Assembly (NCBI RefSeq): GCF_000511955.1
Contig: NZ_AZSU01000002.1
Coordinates: 587,487 to 651,486 of the forward strand
Origin: [Clostridium] ultunense DSM 10521
GTDB taxonomy: Bacteria > Bacillota > Clostridia > Tissierellales > Tepidimicrobiaceae
DNA: 64,000 nt
Direction: 5' to 3'
The notes beneath the pieces are model-generated. The model made no database searches and was not told the DNA's origin. It saw nothing but the letters and a program-made list of their open reading frames with translations. Positions 4,296 to 62,890 of the stretch are shown here, piece by piece (the first letter of the stretch is position 1; each line of letters opens with the position of its first letter). The position numbers and the translations under genes are program-made.

Positions 4296-5267
4296 ATGGA
4301 TAGGAATTTGGCTTTAAATTTAGTCAGAGTAACAGAAGCTGCTGCATTACAATCTGCTCGTTATCTAGGCAGAGGGGATAAAAACAAGGCAGATGAAGCA
4401 GCTGTTAATGGCATGAGGAAAATGTTTGATACCCTAGCTATTGACGGAGTGGTAGTCATTGGCGAAGGAGAAATGGATGAAGCCCCTATGCTCTATATAG
4501 GGGAACAGATAGGCAAGGCTACTAGAGATTCCATAAAGCTAGATATAGCTGTGGACCCATTAGATGGTACTACTGCTGTTGCCAAAGGGTTATCTAATGC
4601 CATATCGGTGGTAGCTGTAGCACCAAGAGGTTGCTTATTGCACGCACCAGATATGTATATGGATAAGATAGCTGTAGGACCAAAAGCAGCTGGAAAGATA
4701 AGTTTAGATGAAACTGTAGAAACCAATTTGAAAAGTCTTTCTAAGGCATTAAATAAGAATATTTCCGATATAACGGTGACTATGCTAGATAGACCAAGAC
4801 ATAAGGAATTAATCCAAAGGGTTAGGGAAGCTGGAGCAAGAATTAAACTATTCCAAGATGGAGATGTGGCTGCTGCTATAGCTACCTGTTTTGAAGACTC
4901 TGGAGTAGATATACTAATGGGTACTGGAGGAGCGCCAGAAGGAGTTCTTGCAGCTGCAGCATTAAAATGTTTAGGTGGAGAAATTCAGGGACGACTTCAC
5001 CCTATAAAAGAAGAGGAAATAGAAAGATGTAAAGCAATGGGATTAGATGATATATATGGTCTACTTACTATGGACCATTTAGTAAGGGGAAAGGAAATAA
5101 TCTTTGCAGCTACAGGCATTTCCAATGGAGAACTTTTAAAGGGAGTTGTCTATTATGAAAACTATATGGCTAAAACCTACTCTGTAGTCATGAGGGCTGA
5201 GACTGGTACCGTAAGGTTTATTGAAGCCATACATAGGTTAGATAAAAAACCTGAATATGCAAAATAA
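4296..5267 (+). CDS. glpX: Class II fructose-1,6-bisphosphatase GlpX (second paralog)
   Basis: 323 residues, clearly homologous to the gene just upstream: shared opening MDRNLALNLVRVTE, then GEGEMDEAPMLYIGE, DPLDGTTAVAKGLSNA and TGGAPEGVLAAAALKC. All expected metal and phosphate ligands look intact, so both copies should be active. The 84-base gap holds no terminator and the second copy has its own RBS (AGGGGGA), so the pair is probably co-transcribed. Tandem duplication followed by divergence is the simplest origin. Whether one copy has become a sedoheptulose bisphosphatase, or answers to a different effector, cannot be judged from sequence alone. Confidence 0.94.
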   Translation: MDRNLALNLVRVTEAAALQSARYLGRGDKNKADEAAVNGMRKMFDTLAIDGVVVIGEGEMDEAPMLYIGEQIGKATRDSIKLDIAVDPLDGTTAVAKGLSNAISVVAVAPRGCLLHAPDMYMDKIAVGPKAAGKISLDETVETNLKSLSKALNKNISDITVTMLDRPRHKELIQRVREAGARIKLFQDGDVAAAIATCFEDSGVDILMGTGGAPEGVLAAAALKCLGGEIQGRLHPIKEEEIERCKAMGLDDIYGLLTMDHLVRGKEIIFAATGISNGELLKGVVYYENYMAKTYSVVMRAETGTVRFIEAIHRLDKKPEYAK

Positions 5268-5385
5268 TTTGATTTGACTTATAAATATTATAATGATATT
5301 ATAATCCTAGAAATACTTATCTATCTGACATTTCTTGAGGTCATTCCAAAACTTGATTTATAGAAATAGGTTTTAAAAATCAGTA

Positions 5386-5436
5386 TAAAGCCGCATGGGA
5401 ATTATAAATTTAGACTTCCTGCGGTAGCTTTTTTTA
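5386..5436 (+). terminator. Terminator-like hairpin in the rho leader (possible attenuator)
   Basis: AAAGC-CGCA-TGGGAA pairs with TTCC-TGCG-GTAGC and is followed by seven T residues. It ends about 20 bases before the rho TTG start and overlaps nothing coding. It may end glpX transcripts, attenuate rho, or both. Two TATAAT boxes at 5289 and 5300 lie upstream, but no -35 at ideal spacing was found. Confidence 0.6.
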
Positions 5437-5456
5437 AATTTTATGGAGGTGTAATT

Positions 5457-6812
5457 TTGGATTCAAGCATATTACGTGAGAAAAAACTGGAAGATCTCCG
5501 GGTTATAGCTAAAACCCTGGGTATTAAAAGCATTACTAAATATAGAAAAAATGAGTTAATAGATATGATATTGCAGAACACAGGAAAGGAAGAAGAGGAA
5601 GTGCCTCAGGAAAAGACCTCTGGGGAAATTGATATTAATGACATCGATATGGAAGAATTACCTGAGAAGGTAACTGAGGAATTGGAACAGATGGAGAATA
5701 TTGATGGTGCTGAAGGAATATTGGAAATTCACCAGGATGGATATGGTTTCTTAAGATCAGACAATTACTTATCCGGCGATAATGATATATACGTATCCCC
5801 ATCCCAGATTAGAAGGTTTAGACTTCGAACGGGAGATAAAGTATTTGGTATCACGAGACCTGCAAAATCGGGAGAAAAGTATAAAGCTCTTCTCTATGTA
5901 AAAAGTGTAAATGGTTTAGACCCGGAAACCTGCCTTAATCGACCAGATTTTGATAGTTTAACTCCAATTTATCCGAGGAAGAGGATTGCATTGGAAACAG
6001 TTCCAAACAATCTTTCCACTAGAATTATCGATTTAATGGCTCCTATTGGGAAGGGACAGAGAGGGATGATTGTCTCTCCACCAAAGGCTGGCAAAACAAC
6101 TCTTCTAAAATCCGTTGCCAACGCCATTTCTAAGAATCACCCTGATATAGAAATCATAGTGCTTTTAATAGATGAGAGACCTGAGGAAGTTACAGATATG
6201 CAAAGGTCTGTAGATGGTGATGTGGTCTATTCTACCTTTGATGAGCTTCCCAATCACCATACTAAAGTAGCTGAAATAGTCTTGGAAAGGGCTAAAAGGC
6301 TAGTTGAGCATGGAAAAGATGTTATAATCCTATTGGACAGTATTACCCGTCTTGCAAGAGCCTATAATCTAACTATACCCGCTACAGGAAGGACCCTATC
6401 TGGCGGATTAGATCCTGGAGCTTTGCATAAACCTAAAAGATTTTTTGGGGCTGCTAGAAATTTAGAAGAAGGAGGCAGTCTAACCATATTAGCTACTGCT
6501 TTAGTTGAAACAGGTAGCAGGATGGATGATGTTATATTTGAAGAGTTTAAGGGTACAGGTAATATGGAAATACATCTAGATAGAAAACTTTCTGAAAAGA
6601 GAATATTCCCAGCCTTAGATATTAATAAATCTGGAACTAGAAGAGAGGATTTATTGTTAACTCAAAAGGAATTAGAAACTATTTGGAGTATTAGAAAGGC
6701 TTTAGGAAATGCCCCTACTCAGGATGTAACAGAGACTTTAATAGAGAATTTAATGGGCATTAAGTCTAATGAAGAATTTATAGTAGAGATGAGAAATAAA
6801 ATTTGGTTTTAG
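5457..6812 (+). CDS. rho: Transcription termination factor Rho
   Basis: Hexameric RNA helicase that ends transcription by pulling on nascent RNA. 451 residues: Rho-N domain at about 1-45 ([20 protein letters not shown]), an acidic linker, the OB-fold RNA-binding domain at about 75-150 ([16 protein letters not shown]), and the RecA-like ATPase. Walker A reads [10 protein letters not shown] near residue 208 and the Walker B region [13 protein letters not shown] follows. Start is TTG 5457 behind ATGGAGGTG. The TAG stop is the last base of an 18-bp target duplication caused by an IS, so the reading frame is untouched but its native 3' neighbour rpmE has been moved 1.6 kb away. Confidence 0.98.
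6795..6812. repeat. Left target-site duplication of the IS
   Basis: AATAAAATTTGGTTTTAG, the last 18 bases of rho including its TAG, recurs exactly at 8438-8455 on the other side of the IS. Flanking bases allow 18 to 20, depending on where the element is taken to start; 18 is chosen because both element ends then begin with TGT. Confidence 0.92.
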
Positions 6813-6889
6813 TGTCAATAACTTTTGAAAATGTCAGTAAAAAATGAGCTAATTATCGCTTAAAAATGTCAGTATTAGGATATAATAAT

Positions 6890-7017
6890 AACATCTTTGG
6901 GGCTTTGATATTGTAGCTGTTCAATTTTAAATGTCAAGGATAAAATGAACAAGCAAAGCTTGTCCTTGACATTTAAAATTTCACTAGCTTGTTTTGCAAC
7001 TAGCCCCAAAGGATGTT
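6890..7017. repeat. Nested palindrome inside the IS, 3' of the transposase gene
   Basis: Outer arms AACATCTTTGGGGCT (6890-6904) and AGCCCCAAAGGATGTT (7002-7017), inner arms AATTTTAAATGTCAAGGA (6923-6940) and TCCTTGACATTTAAAATT (6963-6980, perfect 18 bp), and a small CAAGC-AAA-GCTTG hairpin in the loop. Transcribed from either strand it would fold into one long hairpin. A terminator or insulator between transposase and rho is plausible; it lacks a long T tract. Confidence 0.85.
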
Positions 7018-7029
7018 AAAATATTGATA

Positions 7030-8376
7030 TTAAGCGTATTTGCTTAAAAATATTTCTTCTAGGACACTGAGTATTTCTTCATAACTTTCATCGAAATAGA
7101 CTTTTTTAAATTTATCATGGCCATATTTGAAATAGTGGTCATCTGGAGGTATATACTTAGTTTTAGGTTTATTCTGCTTGATCTCATGTTTTCTTTTAGG
7201 CTTTATGAAGTTAATTACTTCATAAACATTGCCCTGGTATTCTGCTTTAATTCCTACTGAAGTACTGATTATGACAGTGATCTTTGATTTCTTTGGGATT
7301 TCAGGCAATCCAGGGCTTTTTAATACCTGAAAATGTCTATTGTGTATAGAAAAAACACTGCCATTATCAATAGTTCTTGTTTGTTTAACACATAAAATAT
7401 GATCTAGTATTAAATCATCAGTAAGCTTGCGATAAGCTAATTCACTGTCCTCTGGTTCTACAGCAAACATGGAGTTAAACTTAGGAATATATTTAAGCAA
7501 GAATTCATTAGCTTCCTCAACTGTATTAATCCCTGCAATTTTAAACTCAACGGGTAACCTACTTTGTAGCGTATTCCAAAGTCTTTCGACTCTACCTTTG
7601 GCCTGAGGAGAGCGTGCTGTAATAATTGCGATACCTAATTCTTTCATAGCCCTACCAAATTGGGTATCATTGATAATTTTGCCCTCTAGCTGTTCTTCTA
7701 TGGATACTTTACTAGCATTAGGCGAACGGAATATCGTATGTCTATCTGTATAAATACAAGAAGGAATACCATGATTTAAAATCATTTGTCTAGTGATTTC
7801 TAAATATCCATGTAAGCACTCATTTTTAGTCATATAAAGACCTACAATTTCCCCAGAAGCATCATCAATAGCACCATGAAGAGAAAATTTATCAGTATTA
7901 CCAAACCATTCGAAAGGAGTGGCATCTATCTGTATTAACATTCCTTTTCTAGCTTTTCTCTTCCGTCTGTAATGCTTCTTAGGTTTACGCCTCTTCTTAG
8001 GGCTTACAACACCATTAGAAGTTAGTAGATTATAAAGGGCATTGTAACTTATGGAAATACCCTCATTCTCAAGAAGAAGTTCTTGAAAATGCTTAAAATT
8101 GGCATCCTTGTATTTATCGGATTTTTTAAGTTTAACAATATTTTGTTTAAAATCATCATCGAAAGCATGATAAGGTTTCCTATTGGTATTCTTGTGGATA
8201 AGGAACGACACACCTTCTTCTTCCACTCCTTTTTTTAGGCGATAAATTTGTCGTTCACTTAGACCCAGACTTTCGGCCGCATCACAAGGTTTAAGGTTAC
8301 CTTCAATCACGTTTGAGATGACTCGATATCTGTTTAATTGTTTTTCATTCAATAGATAATGCACCTCTTTTTTCAT
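7030..8376 (-). CDS. DDE (rve-type) transposase of the IS
   Basis: 448 residues. N-terminal helix-turn-helix region at about 10-60 (AAESLGLSERQIYRLKKG), a basic linker (PKKRRKPKKHYRRKRKARKG), then the integrase core with the three acidic residues at about 151 (IQIDATPFEWFG), 212 (IYTDRHTIF) and 265 (GRVERLWNTLQ). This layout matches ISNCY/IS1202 transposases. The start is uncertain: ATG 8376 has no ribosome binding site in front, while a TTG at 8352 lies nine bases after AGAGGTG. No frameshift or missing catalytic residue is seen, so the enzyme should be active. Confidence 0.9.
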   Translation of the reverse strand: MKKEVHYLLNEKQLNRYRVISNVIEGNLKPCDAAESLGLSERQIYRLKKGVEEEGVSFLIHKNTNRKPYHAFDDDFKQNIVKLKKSDKYKDANFKHFQELLLENEGISISYNALYNLLTSNGVVSPKKRRKPKKHYRRKRKARKGMLIQIDATPFEWFGNTDKFSLHGAIDDASGEIVGLYMTKNECLHGYLEITRQMILNHGIPSCIYTDRHTIFRSPNASKVSIEEQLEGKIINDTQFGRAMKELGIAIITARSPQAKGRVERLWNTLQSRLPVEFKIAGINTVEEANEFLLKYIPKFNSMFAVEPEDSELAYRKLTDDLILDHILCVKQTRTIDNGSVFSIHNRHFQVLKSPGLPEIPKKSKITVIISTSVGIKAEYQGNVYEVINFIKPKRKHEIKQNKPKTKYIPPDDHYFKYGHDKFKKVYFDESYEEILSVLEEIFLSKYA

Positions 8377-15658: not shown

Positions 15659-17248
15659 ATGGATAATAATCGGGAAAAATTAATGACGATTCAAGAGGCT
15701 AGTGAATGGGCAAGTGTTTATTTGGATAGGGAAGTAACCACATCTAACATATCCTACTTAATACAATATGGAAGAATAAGGAAGATGGAAAACAATGGAA
15801 ACACTCAAGTATCAAAAATGGATTTAATAAAATATTATGAATCCTATTTAGGAAAAAGAGAAATAAGTTGGAAAAAACAATTAGGAAATGATTTAAACTG
15901 GGGACTGTCTTTTGATCATTTAAGGGAAGCAGATACTACAAAACATGTACATAGATTGCATCCTTATAAAGGAAAGTTTATTCCCCAGCTAGTGGAATAT
16001 TTTTTGGATGACCATATTGACGATTATAAAGGTGAAGTTTACTTTGATAGGGGTGATATTGTTCTTGATCCTTTCTGTGGCAGTGGAACTACACTTGTTC
16101 AGGCCAATGAACTAGGTATACATGCTATAGGAATCGATATTTCAGAATTCAATACATTTATCAGCAATGCTAAGATTGGAAGATATGATATCCAGGATAT
16201 TAGATATGAAACCAATAGAATATTAAAAGTGTTAAATGAAATGGCTAAGTCTTCAAATATAATAAAATTTGAAGATGAATTATCTACTTTGTTATCAGAA
16301 TTTAATAATAAGTACTTTCCTTCACCAGAATATAAGCGCAGGGTAAGGAACAAGGAGATAGATGGCAAAAAATATGGGGAAGAAAAAGAGAAAGAATTTT
16401 TATCTATATACTATGGTTTAATAGATAAATATGGAATTAAACTAAAACAAGACAGCGACAAAACTTTTTTAGATAAATGGTATATAAAAAATGTTCGGCA
16501 AGAAATAGACATGGCCTTTGATTTAATTAGAAATATTGAAAATATACAAACAAAAAAAATAGCAGCTCTAATTCTAAGTAGAACTATGCGCTCCTGTCGC
16601 GCTACTACCCATTCTGATTTAGCAACATTGAAGGATCCTATATTAGCTACTTATTATTGCCATAAGCATGGGAAAATTTGCAAACCTTTATTTACAATAT
16701 CTAATTGGTTTTATAGATATAGTCGTGATACTATAAAACGATTGAAAGAGTTTGACCAATTAAGAACTAATTCATATCAAATATGTTTAAGTGGAGATTC
16801 TAGGAATATTAACATTCTTGAAAATTTAAGAGAAAAAAGTGAATACTTTTATGAGTTGGTAAAGGAAAATAAAATAAATGGTATTTTTACAAGTCCTCCC
16901 TATGTAGGTCTAATAGACTATCATGAACAACATGCATATGCCTATGATTTATTTGGATTTAATAGGCGAGATGATTTGGAAATAGGTCCTCTTTTTAGAG
17001 GAAGAGGAATAGAAGCCAGAAAATCCTATGTGGAAGGTATTTCGGAAGTATTGATAAATTGTAAAAAGTTTTTAGTTGATGATTTTAATATCTTCATAGT
17101 AGCCAATGATAGATATAATCTATATCCAGAGATTGCAAAAAGATCTGGTTTAAAAATAGTTAATCAATTCAAAAGGCCAGTTTTAAATCGAACCGAAAAA
17201 GATAAAAGCGCCTATTCTGAGATAATATTCCATATGAAGAGGGGGTAG
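15659..17248 (+). CDS. Type II DNA methyltransferase (N4-cytosine or N6-adenine) with N-terminal HTH-like domain
   Basis: 529 residues. Motif I DPFCGSGTT lies near residue 140 and the catalytic SPPY (FTSPPYVGLIDYHEQ) near 412, about 270 residues later, so the target-recognition region lies between them. SPPY favours N4-cytosine, though N6-adenine cannot be excluded. Residues 1-65 (TIQEASEWASVYLDRE then TSNISYLIQYGRIRKMENNG) look like an excisionase/MerR-like winged helix, which is unusual here and may bind the promoter dyad upstream. The partner nuclease starts five bases after the stop. Protects host DNA at the site cut by that nuclease. Confidence 0.9.
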   Translation: MDNNREKLMTIQEASEWASVYLDREVTTSNISYLIQYGRIRKMENNGNTQVSKMDLIKYYESYLGKREISWKKQLGNDLNWGLSFDHLREADTTKHVHRLHPYKGKFIPQLVEYFLDDHIDDYKGEVYFDRGDIVLDPFCGSGTTLVQANELGIHAIGIDISEFNTFISNAKIGRYDIQDIRYETNRILKVLNEMAKSSNIIKFEDELSTLLSEFNNKYFPSPEYKRRVRNKEIDGKKYGEEKEKEFLSIYYGLIDKYGIKLKQDSDKTFLDKWYIKNVRQEIDMAFDLIRNIENIQTKKIAALILSRTMRSCRATTHSDLATLKDPILATYYCHKHGKICKPLFTISNWFYRYSRDTIKRLKEFDQLRTNSYQICLSGDSRNINILENLREKSEYFYELVKENKINGIFTSPPYVGLIDYHEQHAYAYDLFGFNRRDDLEIGPLFRGRGIEARKSYVEGISEVLINCKKFLVDDFNIFIVANDRYNLYPEIAKRSGLKIVNQFKRPVLNRTEKDKSAYSEIIFHMKRG

Positions 17249-17253
17249 AATAG

Positions 17254-18297
17254 ATGGAACTGTCAAAAGATAAAGTAGAAAAGTTGTCTCATCTAATAAT
17301 AAATGTTTTATTTAAGCGTTTTGAGAGTTTTCCTGATGATTCAATAGATAATAGAAATGCACCTTTTCACGAGGCCTTTTTAAAGGCTTTCTCTGATAAG
17401 TTTCATGGCAAAGTAGTCGATATACCATTTTTTATAAGTCTTAGCAGTTGGTTACATGGACTGAATACCACATTAGGACAAACTTTTTTTGAAGGAGCTG
17501 CACATATATTATCCGATGGAGAAAAAAGAGAGTATACCTCTAAAAAGCTAGGGAACTTACAAATTTCAAAAGATCAAAAGGCCAATATTAACAGTATTAT
17601 GACTGAGTTAAGTAATTCTACTAGGGAACCTAATTTAATAGAAGAAAATAAAATTCTTTTTATGGAGGATTTTTCAGAAAAAGATAATGCCAATGATTTT
17701 TCTTGTGATGTATTTATAGAAGATATAGATAAAATAATTGCTATTGAATTAAAATCTGTAAAACCTAATTCTGGAGAAATGGCAGGGGAAAAACGAAAAA
17801 TACTAGAAGGAAAGACTGCATTGTTTGAAAATTTCCCAGGAAAAAGGGTTAGTTTCTACATGGGCTTTCCCTTTGATCCAACAGCTGAAAAACCTTTTGA
17901 AAAAAACAAAGATAGATTTATGGATTCAATTATTAATTGTAACAAATATTTTGACGATGAAGAAATCTTACTAGGAGATGAATTATGGGACTTTCTATCT
18001 GGAACAAGTAATACTATGCAGCAGTTAATAACTATAATAAATACAATTGCAACTACTGATTTTTTAGATAAATATAATTTCATTAATGACAAATCAAATA
18101 GACCTTCGGACAAATATAAGGAGTACCTCAAAACTTGGAATCTATTTTCAGAATTAGAATTATTAAAAAAGGATAATATTATTAAAGAAAAAATCAAAGG
18201 TAATAATAGATTAACTAGAATTTACAACCAACAGGTCTTTAAGAAAGAGAAATATAATTGGGATAGATATAATGCTTTAGAGGGATTAGTGGAATAG
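17254..18297 (+). CDS. Type II restriction endonuclease, TdeIII-like
   Basis: 347 residues. FFISLSSWLHGLNTTLGQTF near the N-terminus resembles TdeIII/MjaII-type enzymes (GGNCC cutters) as I recall the family. A PD-(D/E)xK core is visible: Asp of CDVFIEDIDK at about 152 followed by AIELKSVKP (E-x-K) at about 166-168. Its start is five bases after the methyltransferase stop, RBS GAGGGGG inside that gene's end, so the two are translated together with methylase first. A terminator follows at 18328. The assignment as a nuclease is firm from context and core motif; the specificity is inference. Confidence 0.82.
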   Translation: MELSKDKVEKLSHLIINVLFKRFESFPDDSIDNRNAPFHEAFLKAFSDKFHGKVVDIPFFISLSSWLHGLNTTLGQTFFEGAAHILSDGEKREYTSKKLGNLQISKDQKANINSIMTELSNSTREPNLIEENKILFMEDFSEKDNANDFSCDVFIEDIDKIIAIELKSVKPNSGEMAGEKRKILEGKTALFENFPGKRVSFYMGFPFDPTAEKPFEKNKDRFMDSIINCNKYFDDEEILLGDELWDFLSGTSNTMQQLITIINTIATTDFLDKYNFINDKSNRPSDKYKEYLKTWNLFSELELLKKDNIIKEKIKGNNRLTRIYNQQVFKKEKYNWDRYNALEGLVE

Positions 18298-18681: not shown

Positions 18682-19096
18682 AAAACAGTTATTAAAGGCT
18701 ATAAATATAGAATATATTCAACAGAGGAACAAAAAAATTACCAGAAACTAAAAATTCTATAGGACTAGACCTAGGTATACCCGATATCCTCATTACAAGT
18801 AATGGAGAAACCTTTAAAACAATAAACTTGCATATAAATATGAAAAGAAATTAGCAAAAATACAAAGACAATTACAATATAAATCAGAATGGAATAATAG
18901 AATTTACCATAAGGCAAATAGATTCTATGCCTGTAGTTAAATATGCAGTAATTGTAATTATAAAAATGAAAAAACTAAAGATCTATCTATAAGACAATGG
19001 ACTTGTCCTGAATGTGGAACTTACCATAATAGAGATATAAATGCTAGCATAAATACATTAAACCAAGGTTTAAAAGATTTAGAATCAGTGGTGTAA
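18682..19096 (+). pseudogene. TnpB remnant with frameshifts and internal deletions
   Basis: Three fragments in different frames: KTVIKGYKYRIYSTEEQK (N-terminus), SIGLDLGIPDILITSNGETF (RuvC-I aspartate), and KLAKIQRQLQYKSEWNNRIY followed after a stop by ICSNCNYKNEK, WTCPECGTYHNRDINASINT (zinc finger and RuvC-III aspartate). The segment with the RuvC-II glutamate is deleted. Not functional. Confidence 0.8.
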
Positions 19097-19612
19097 ATAT
19101 GAAAATGCAAGGTAGGCTTTGCACACCTATTGAAATATACAGGGTAGGGACTATCCGAATTAGCTCCTGTGAAGATAGTTGTAAAAACTCTAAGCATTTC
19201 ATCAGATTTAGTTGAAGTAAAAAAGCATTACACTACATATTTGATTTAGCAACGGAAAGGGGATTTGAAAGTAGAGCAGTGCTAGATGATCAAGTAAGTT
19301 TAATTGAAATAGGGAAAGGAGAAGAGATTATTGGGATTTTAGCCCATGTGGATGTGGTACTTTCGGGAGATATTGATGCATGGGTAGTTCCATCCTTTAA
19401 AGCAGTTGAGAGTTTGGGAAAACCATTTAAGAAGAAAATCCAACTAATCATTGGAACCCAAGAAGAAGTAGAGTGGACGGATATGAAGGCCTATGTAAAA
19501 AAATTTTCAGTATGTAATATTGAAAAGGCAATGACAAATATTGAGATTTCTGTCCTTGTGGATACGAAACTGGAAGTAGGATTTATAATCTAAAAGAAAA
19601 GAATCTTAGAGT

Positions 19613-19723: not shown

Positions 19724-20482
19724 TTAGTAGCCAATTATAGCAGCTCCAATAGCCCCAAGAAATTGAGATTCCTCAGTGGAAAGTATACTTATTCCTAATT
19801 TTTCTTGGAGCAATTCCTTCAATTTTTCATTCCTTGAAACTCCACCAGAAAAAAACACCTTATCCTCAATGCCTATTCTACTTACCAGGGAATAAGTTTT
19901 ATTACATACAGAATGAAGTAAACCTGCTGCAATATTTTCCTTTGGAGTACCTTCTGCTACAAGGCTTACTACTTCTGATTCAGCAAATACGGTACACATG
20001 GAGCTAATATTGGAAGGTTCTGCTCCAGTAGCCAATGGGGAAAGGTCATCAATGTCCACTTCTAAAGCATTTGCCATTACCTGAAGAAATCTACCTGTCC
20101 CTGCAGCACATTTGTCATTCATTAAAAAATCTACTACCATACCTTCATTATTTAGTTTAATTACCTTACTATCCTGACCTCCAATGTCTATTACAGTTCT
20201 AATATTAGGGTCGATATAATAAGCGCCTTTTCCATGGCAGGTAATCTCCGTTACTTTTTTATCTACAAAGGGCAAGGACACTCTTCCGTAACCAGTACCT
20301 ACAATGGATTTTATCTTATTTTTAGGAGTATTAGTTTTTTGTAAAATTTCTTTCAACAACTGTTCTCCTACACCTTTTGGACTCCATCCCGTAGGCAATA
20401 GTCCAGTGGCAATTATCTTTTCTCCATCATAGGCTGCTATTTTTGCTGCTACAGATCCGACATCTATGCCAATACTTATCAA
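19724..20482 (-). CDS. ATP-dependent activator of a dehydratase/double-cubane reductase (HgdC/BadF type)
   Basis: 252 residues. ASKHA-fold ATPase: ISIGIDVGSVAAKIA is the first phosphate motif, VIDIGGQDSKVI the second, FFSGGVSRNEKL the third. The two cysteines that hold the [4Fe-4S] cluster between the two subunits of the dimer are in NDKCAAGTGRF and SSMCTVFAE. It hydrolyses ATP to push one low-potential electron onto its partner. TTG 20482 follows AAGGAAG at nine bases and gives the usual MISIGIDVG opening; GTG 20491 touches the ribosome binding site. Lies 26 bases after the partner gene in the same operon, with only a single candidate partner subunit. Confidence 0.92.
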   Translation of the reverse strand: MISIGIDVGSVAAKIAAYDGEKIIATGLLPTGWSPKGVGEQLLKEILQKTNTPKNKIKSIVGTGYGRVSLPFVDKKVTEITCHGKGAYYIDPNIRTVIDIGGQDSKVIKLNNEGMVVDFLMNDKCAAGTGRFLQVMANALEVDIDDLSPLATGAEPSNISSMCTVFAESEVVSLVAEGTPKENIAAGLLHSVCNKTYSLVSRIGIEDKVFFSGGVSRNEKLKELLQEKLGISILSTEESQFLGAIGAAIIGY

Positions 20483-20508
20483 AAATATCACTTCCTTATG
20501 AGTTTCAT

Positions 20509-21669
20509 CTATGCATTAACTGTAGAGCTTATAGTCTCTAAGAAAGCCTCTACCCTAACTTTAATTTGACCTAAGTCTGAGTCAGAATAATCCGTTTCAA
20601 TTTGTAAGAAGGGTAGATTTAGCTCATCTTTAACGAAATTTCTAACAAAGTAGGATTCTATATTGTATGTATGGCAAGCTTGCCAAGTTAAATCAACTAC
20701 CCCATCTACCTCATATTCTTCAGCTAATCTTTTAATTAAGTCCATTCTACTATTATTAGGAGTCATACAGGAACATGGGGTTTTAAGGTATTTTTCAGCT
20801 AAAGCTGTAATTGGATCTTTTTCTTCGTCTACCATTATATCTAAACCTTTATACCCGGTACAATTTTCTAATGCAACTACGGAAGCTCCGGATTCTTCTA
20901 AAATTCTTATTACCTTTTCTGAACCGCTTCCTACAGGGCATCCAGTTAGTAAAATTCTTGGAGCCTTTTCATCGAAAGCGAATTTTCCTTCTTTTATTCG
21001 TTCTTCAACTTCTTCTATTAACCTTTCAATCAATTCTATTCCAGCTTCCTTATCCACATTGAATCCTTTTAACCATTGGGCTAACATCATATCCATTCCT
21101 GTCAATGGAGCAGGTTTGTAGGCGTTTAGTTTGTGAAGCCTTTTCATAGCATCCCTTTCTCTATTCATCAGTTTAATAGCATTTCTAAGTTTTTCCTCAG
21201 TAATTTCTACACCTAATTCCTTTTCTAAAAAGTTTTTGAATCTTACCATTTCATTTTCCCACATGGTTAAGGCTAATTCTCCTTCTGCTGTTTGAGGTAA
21301 ATTCATTACATGCATAGGTTTTAGTTCCGCCATTAGTTCATACATTTTCTTTTTACCATCACAAGTAGTTTCTGCCAATAGTACATCGGAAAAGTAAAAA
21401 TATGGACATTTGTCAGTTATGGCAAATCCATAACTAGATTTAATGAGGGGACATAGGTTTCGTGGTAACTTTTTTTCTGCTTCCTCAATGGGTTCTTGGG
21501 TAGTCCCACAAAGGGTAACTGAAATTGCATCAGCAGCTAAAGCAATTTCCTGTGGTGAGAATACACAATACATTCCTACTACCTTTTTACCAGCTTCATG
21601 GGCTTCTTTAATTTTAACCGAGTTAACACCTCTTAGGGCTTCAACTTCCTCCATAACCTTAGGTCTCAT
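20509..21669 (-). CDS. 2-hydroxyacyl-CoA dehydratase D-family protein, probably double-cubane cluster type
   Basis: 386 residues, the size of single-subunit family members such as Escherichia coli YjiM. Ten cysteines are visible, including GMYCVFSPQEIALAADA, RNLCPLIKSS, TTCDGKKKMYEL, GCPVGSGSEK, ENCTGYKG, TPCSCMTPNNSR and WQACHTYNIESY, more than one [4Fe-4S] cluster needs. True acyl-CoA dehydratases have two different subunits (HgdA and HgdB); only one is here, paired with its own activator, which is the arrangement of double-cubane cluster protein. The natural substrate of that class is not known. ATG 21669 (MRPKVMEE) is eight bases after AAAGGAG. Single-subunit dehydratase remains possible. 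Confidence 0.82.
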   Translation of the reverse strand: MRPKVMEEVEALRGVNSVKIKEAHEAGKKVVGMYCVFSPQEIALAADAISVTLCGTTQEPIEEAEKKLPRNLCPLIKSSYGFAITDKCPYFYFSDVLLAETTCDGKKKMYELMAELKPMHVMNLPQTAEGELALTMWENEMVRFKNFLEKELGVEITEEKLRNAIKLMNRERDAMKRLHKLNAYKPAPLTGMDMMLAQWLKGFNVDKEAGIELIERLIEEVEERIKEGKFAFDEKAPRILLTGCPVGSGSEKVIRILEESGASVVALENCTGYKGLDIMVDEEKDPITALAEKYLKTPCSCMTPNNSRMDLIKRLAEEYEVDGVVDLTWQACHTYNIESYFVRNFVKDELNLPFLQIETDYSDSDLGQIKVRVEAFLETISSTVNA

Positions 21670-21875
21670 CTTCATCTCTCCTTTTATCATAATAATAGAA
21701 TATCTATAATAGTGTAACATTTAATATTAATGTCTACCAATTGGATATATTAATAGATAGAAGAATTATATAGATAAGATTTATAAAGAATAATATTTAA
21801 TGGAAATATTTATTTACTCATTTATATAATGATGTATAATAGAACATGGAGAAAGGGATGAAAAGAAGGGACATT

Positions 21876-62747: not shown

Positions 62748-62776
62748 ATGTTCATAAATTAATAGAAATCTTGATG

Positions 62777-62877
62777 CCTTATCAAGAGAGGTGGAGGGAA
62801 TGGGCCCTATGAAACCCGGCAACCTGTATTATACAAAGGTGCTAAATCCCACAGAATTTGGATTCTGAAAGATGAGG
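62777..62877 (+). ncRNA. SAM-I (S-box) riboswitch
   Basis: Core elements in order: CCTTATCAAGAGAGGTGGAG, GGAATGGGCCCTATGAAACC, CGGCAACC, AAGGTGCTAAATCCC and CAGAATTTGGATTCTGAAAG, closed by GATGAGG, which pairs with the opening CCTTATC. High S-adenosylmethionine should favour the terminator that follows. Confidence 0.96.
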
Positions 62878-62890
62878 TTACTATTAAATT

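Follow-up and report, generated by a model that had tools for sequence, protein, structure and literature searches.

A probable double-cubane cluster protein and its ATP-dependent reductase encoded side by side in [Clostridium] ultunense, with a tentative link to selenium metabolism

The gene pair and its surroundings

The window analyzed here is a 64,000-nucleotide stretch of a contig (NZ_AZSU01000002.1) of [Clostridium] ultunense DSM 10521. The first-pass annotation had read two of its genes as an activator and a single dehydratase-like subunit with ten cysteines. Both genes were found on the minus strand, and the dehydratase-like protein contains ten cysteines (residues 35, 54, 73, 88, 103, 244, 270, 299, 301 and 332). 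We refer to this protein as DCCP (double-cubane cluster protein), for reasons given below. The features of the window considered here are:

15659-18297, plus strand: gene for a DNA methylase (PF01555) and, after it, one for a TdeIII-type restriction endonuclease (PF09520, 212 bits)
18944-19093, probably from about 18530, plus strand: C-terminal remnant of an IS200/IS605 TnpB (NCBIfam IS200_TnpB, 60 bits)
19279-19593, plus strand: 104-aa frame
19724-20482, minus strand: probable DCCP reductase (ATP-dependent activase, BcrAD_BadFG family), 252 aa from TTG 20482, assigned by TIGR00241
20491-20497, minus strand: ribosome-binding-like AAGGAAG, from sequence reading
20509-21669, minus strand: probable DCCP gene, 386 aa, assigned by homology, cysteines and model
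21676-21683, minus strand: ribosome-binding-like AAGGAGAG, 6 nt before ATG 21669, from sequence reading
62776-62878, plus strand: SAM riboswitch (RF00162, 91.9 bits)

The start of the DCCP gene was set at ATG 21669 because it is preceded by the ribosome-binding-like AAGGAGAG. The mechanical open reading frame (ORF) of the activase begins at GTG 20491, but we preferred TTG 20482, as AAGGAAG stands 8 nt ahead of it; in the resulting 252-aa reading, the activase has cysteines at positions 82, 125, 163 and 193. The activase gene lies downstream of the DCCP gene across a gap of 26 nt. Chance ORFs are excluded for this pair by the profile scores reported below and by relatives in other genomes, which reach up to 97% identity. 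Close to the pair, a promoter scan stayed at chance level, no terminator was found, and an Rfam scan gave no match.

By reading of the ORFs, the pair is surrounded by housekeeping and transport genes. The TnpB remnant marks a decayed insertion located between the pair and the restriction gene, and the 104-aa frame gives the impression of a dipeptidase fragment, with no match in Pfam.

Family, cluster cysteines and predicted fold

The dehydratase-like protein matched PF06050 with 423 bits and the activase matched PF01869 with 193 bits. The NCBIfam model NF040772, "double-cubane-cluster-containing anaerobic reductase", gave the dehydratase-like protein 545.6 bits, well above its curated equivalog cut-off of 350. 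The family is thus already named in public curated annotation, and the present pair is one more member. In a sequence search of the PDB, the Carboxydothermus DCCP (6ENO/7YYL) ranked first with an E-value of about 1e-85, followed by BzdN with 1e-22. The activase scored 281.5 bits with TIGR00241 (cut-off 125.4) and aligned with HgdC (1HUX), HadI (4EHT) and DCCP-R (7YYL chain E). In the alignments with HgdC and HadI, C125 and C163 correspond to both cysteines conserved in those two proteins and are putative cluster cysteines.

Six of the ten cysteines, C35, C73, C103, C270, C299 and C332, were cysteine in every aligned DCCP row, including 6ENO, E. coli YjiM and the collected family members. All six match 6ENO, which was one of the checks proposed with the first-pass annotation, and by alignment they are candidate ligands of a double-cubane cluster. 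Five of the six also match BzdN directly, while C293 of BzdN lies one column off C299. Of the remaining cysteines, C54 and C88 are near-universal among DCCPs but absent from BzdN, and C301 and C244 vary among the aligned DCCP rows. At the C244 position, about half of the rows have cysteine, while 6ENO and a large number of clade A proteins have threonine and many clade C relatives valine (clades defined below); in BzdN, the position corresponds to Ser239, a residue lining a narrow water channel to the cluster.

An AlphaFold2 model of DCCP (34 sequences) had a mean pLDDT of 91.6 and a pTM of 0.91. In a Foldseek search of the PDB with this model, the top five matches were DCCP chains (TM 0.93, 1.8-1.9 Å, 38% identity). 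The proposed superposition on the double-cubane protein thus gave DCCP as the best match, at TM 0.93 and 1.8 Å. BzdN and HadC ranked after DCCP (TM 0.86, 2.7 Å), BzdN being the nearer of the two.

The shared Pfam family PF06050, an activase of the same type and the TM of 0.86 between the model and HadC would also suit one half of a 2-hydroxyacyl-CoA dehydratase of the HadBC/HgdAB type, with its partner encoded elsewhere in the genome. Such a partner subunit was named at the outset as one of the findings that would speak against the double-cubane reading. The genome comprises 3.2 Mb on 12 contigs with an estimated completeness of 100%. In it, PF06050 found one full-length protein and two weak partial matches, a search with the DCCP protein matched nothing but itself, and no second full-length dehydratase subunit was found by either route; the single subunit noted for the pair thus holds for the whole genome. 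The two partial matches, a DUF2229 pair on contig C4, were rejected as partner subunits: they have their own activase and belong to a different system. In that run (4320-7375 of its locus), two DUF2229 proteins and the activase form a separate, uncharacterized activase system in the same genome. The dehydratase-like protein scored 103 bits with the HadC model (cut-off 700) and 35 bits with the HadB model (cut-off 750), HadC has no cysteine at the positions of C35 and C270, and, as first read, neither a CoA gene nor a 2-hydroxy-acid gene was seen within about 7 kb of the pair (ORF translations read, with Pfam used for the methylase and TdeIII genes alone). Half of a dehydratase is therefore very improbable here, and we regard this reading as largely refuted.

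Membership in the class I benzoyl-CoA reductase line, with the protein acting as an electron-storing BzdN-like subunit, is barely credible. An [8Fe-9S] cluster is present in BzdN too (PMC11971306), and among structural matches BzdN comes directly after DCCP. However, the genome lacks a BzdO-like catalytic subunit, BzdO/BcrB-type partners included, and the BzdN model gave 90 bits with a cut-off of 453.8; the score with the BcrC model was likewise far under its cut-off.

We therefore assign the two genes to a DCCP and its ATP-dependent reductase, with a probability of about 0.94 that refers to the enzyme type alone. The double-cubane type had been put forward as probable from the letters of the window; the NF040772 score, the six aligned cysteines, the DCCP-like model and the lack of a partner subunit bear it out. 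Counted against the assignment are the 38% identity to a characterized DCCP from another clade and the residues that differ in two places, beside the last ligand and at the BzdN-channel position (C244, where 6ENO has Thr). By homology with the family, the activase would be a homodimer holding one [4Fe-4S] cluster between its subunits, which would be reduced by ferredoxin or flavodoxin and would then bind a DCCP homodimer. ATP hydrolysis would drive low-potential electrons, one at a time, into the [8Fe-9S] double-cubane cluster that each DCCP subunit holds, and the cluster itself would be the active site at which a small substrate is reduced.

Distribution of the family and neighboring genes

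The DCCP family is common and widespread. Proteins above the NF040772 cut-off were encoded in 40 of 61 related genomes and, in a phylum-wide sample of 200 genomes, in 66; the control genomes of E. coli, with yjiM-yjiL, and Methanocaldococcus jannaschii also exceeded it. By motif and tree, the family falls into three clades: A (long, Carboxydothermus type), B (YjiM type) and C (the type of the present protein, with the motif TWQACHTYN). These labels were coined here, set by motif and checked against one FastTree tree with midpoint root. Clade C occurs in Tissierella, Alkaliphilus, Desulfotomaculum relatives and Desulfobacterota. An activase gene was located within 6 kb of 82 of the 94 clade C DCCP genes and was adjacent in most relatives.

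Several other arrangements were seen. Two DCCP genes lie close together in four genomes (G034, G011, G007 and G020) and at a further locus (L123); such paired genes, of the same or of different clades, often have one activase nearby. At four loci of Tissierella relatives, a gene for a NifU-like Fe-S scaffold, possibly dedicated to the cluster, stands directly upstream of the DCCP pair. MtaA-like methyltransferase genes adjoin clade C DCCPs at five loci, two of which also have a corrinoid activase, and these neighborhoods resemble published type 1 mlp clusters.

The pair in the window stands solitary, so its own neighborhood gives no lead on its substrate. From the gene neighborhoods of relatives, a role in selenium or sulfur metabolism is the best lead: the pair might, for example, provide selenide for SelD or reduce a selenium or sulfur species that is methylated or bound to a carrier. 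We counted loci at which a DCCP gene has, within 6 kb, at least one gene of a selenium set (SelD, SelA, SelB, YedE, YedF, Sec-lyase-like or Se/S-carrier, PF11823). In clade A this applied to 24 of 31 loci, in clade B to 11 of 41 and in clade C to 14 of 94, while none of 49 control regions (861 kb in total, from part of the same genomes) had such a gene. Fisher p values against the controls were about 2e-14, 8e-5 and 0.002 for clades A, B and C, respectively, for loci that are not phylogenetically independent. The neighborhood thresholds were our choice, and the counts are lower bounds, as some loci have short flanks. In the clearest case (L191), one run contains YedE, a TusA-like protein, a clade C DCCP, an activase, a clade A DCCP, a Sec-lyase-like protein, SelD and YedF. 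In E. coli, the gene after yjiML is ytiA, which encodes a PF11823 Se/S-carrier protein. At a further locus (L193:4869-6164, plus strand), a SelD whose gene neighbors those of a clade A DCCP and an activase has about 90 extra N-terminal residues matched by the Se/S-carrier query, and is apparently a carrier-SelD fusion.

Nearly all close relatives have selD and are thus uninformative regarding co-occurrence, and the comparison was therefore redone across the phylum. In the sample of 200 genomes, selD was present in 66 of 67 genomes with DCCP and in 74 of 133 without (p 5e-12), an association that is confounded by anaerobic life. Published work contains hints of such a link: Lin et al. 2015 (PMC5322559) list a "2-hydroxyglutaryl-CoA dehydratase subunit" and a "CoA-substrate-specific enzyme activase" as STRING partners of selenium genes, and a 2023 preprint (PMC10418091) provisionally tied the dicubane cluster protein to selenium metabolism. 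In outline, the selenium association had therefore been noted before; the present analysis adds counts for each clade, control regions and a test of co-occurrence. The genome under study also uses selenium, with a TGA-containing SelD on contig C5, adjoined by genes reading as SelA and SelB, and, on contig C2, YedF with a neighboring Se/S-carrier-like gene.

Several observations run counter to a selenium or sulfur role. There is no selenium neighbor at the pair in the window, and most pairs of its close relatives are likewise solitary. A genome of the same genus has selD but no DCCP, and another genome has DCCP while selD was not detected. In addition, some clade C pairs adjoin genes for NitT/TauT-type ABC transporters or MtaA-like methyltransferases instead. 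Taken together, we consider a role in selenium or sulfur metabolism a tentative reading, with somewhat less than an even chance of being correct.

A narrower proposal, which we consider unlikely in this specific form, is that DCCPs are ATP-driven selenium reductases, in which the double-cubane cluster would reduce Se0, either free or on a persulfide-type Se/S carrier downstream of a Sec lyase, to selenide for SelD. By our own estimate from textbook constants, the Se0/HSe- couple lies at about -0.72 V at pH 7, below ferredoxin, and ATP-driven electrons for selenide formation are therefore chemically sensible; S0/HS-, at about -0.27 V, would not need them. We did not find such a mechanism stated for DCCP in the literature consulted, in which the link between the family and selenium is loose.

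The pair might instead detoxify or assimilate a small nitrogen or carbon compound, resembling azide, hydrazine or acetylene, in the fashion of nitrogenase. DCCPs are reported to act on acetylene, hydrazine and azide in vitro (PMC11971306), and NitT/TauT-type transporter genes adjoin some clade C pairs. However, the physiological relevance of these activities has been described as unclear (PMC11971306), and a recurring nitrogen gene was not found in the scanned neighborhoods; we regard such a function as doubtful. The transporter genes, seen beside clade C pairs at three loci in three genera, encode a SsuA_fam/NMT1-like binding protein, a permease and an ATPase, a possible clue to a substrate.

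DCCPs are described as using a double-cubane [8Fe-9S] cofactor as an active site, and a 2025 paper on benzoyl-CoA reductase (PMC11971306) regards them as archetypes of the family whose biological function is unknown. With selenium or sulfur metabolism as the lead, the neighborhood and co-occurrence counts narrow the question to whether the DCCP pair supplies selenide, or reduces related selenium or sulfur species, for SelD.

Comparison with known systems

HadBC (3O3M), the 2-hydroxyisocaproyl-CoA dehydratase, shares its fold and activase type with the present system, but is built from two different subunits, of which HadC has no cysteine at two of the six positions; here a single dehydratase-like subunit is encoded. 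BzdN (8S02) of class I benzoyl-CoA reductase is a proven [8Fe-9S] protein, and the double-cubane cofactor has so far been reported for DCCP and BzdN alone (PMC11971306). The BzdN fold resembles our model (TM 0.86). However, BzdN works with BzdO, and its cluster is described as an electron store rather than an active site (PMC11971306), whereas the present protein has no partner.

The closest characterized system is the DCCP of Carboxydothermus hydrogenoformans with its reductase (6ENO, 7YYL, 7YZM). The two-gene form had been likened to it at the outset, and the activase gene indeed adjoins the DCCP gene here. The two systems have this form, the activase type, the six cluster cysteines and the fold in common (TM 0.93, 1.8 Å, 38% identity). 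In contrast, the Carboxydothermus protein belongs to clade A, with a longer N-terminus and GTPQ, NCACF and SLQFC motifs, and the present protein belongs to clade C, with GCPVG, PCSCM and TWQACHTYN. Due to these different motifs, the residues at the position of the BzdN Ser239 channel and beside the last ligand differ. In Calderihabitans, a DCCP pair was down-regulated under CO (PMC7306483).

E. coli YjiM-YjiL has the same two-gene form, and YjiM contains all ten cysteines of the present protein. It differs in belonging to clade B and in being followed by ytiA, the PF11823 Se/S-carrier gene, a neighbor that the present pair lacks. The pair described here is itself one of many, and yjiML of E. 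coli K-12 offers a ready laboratory system.
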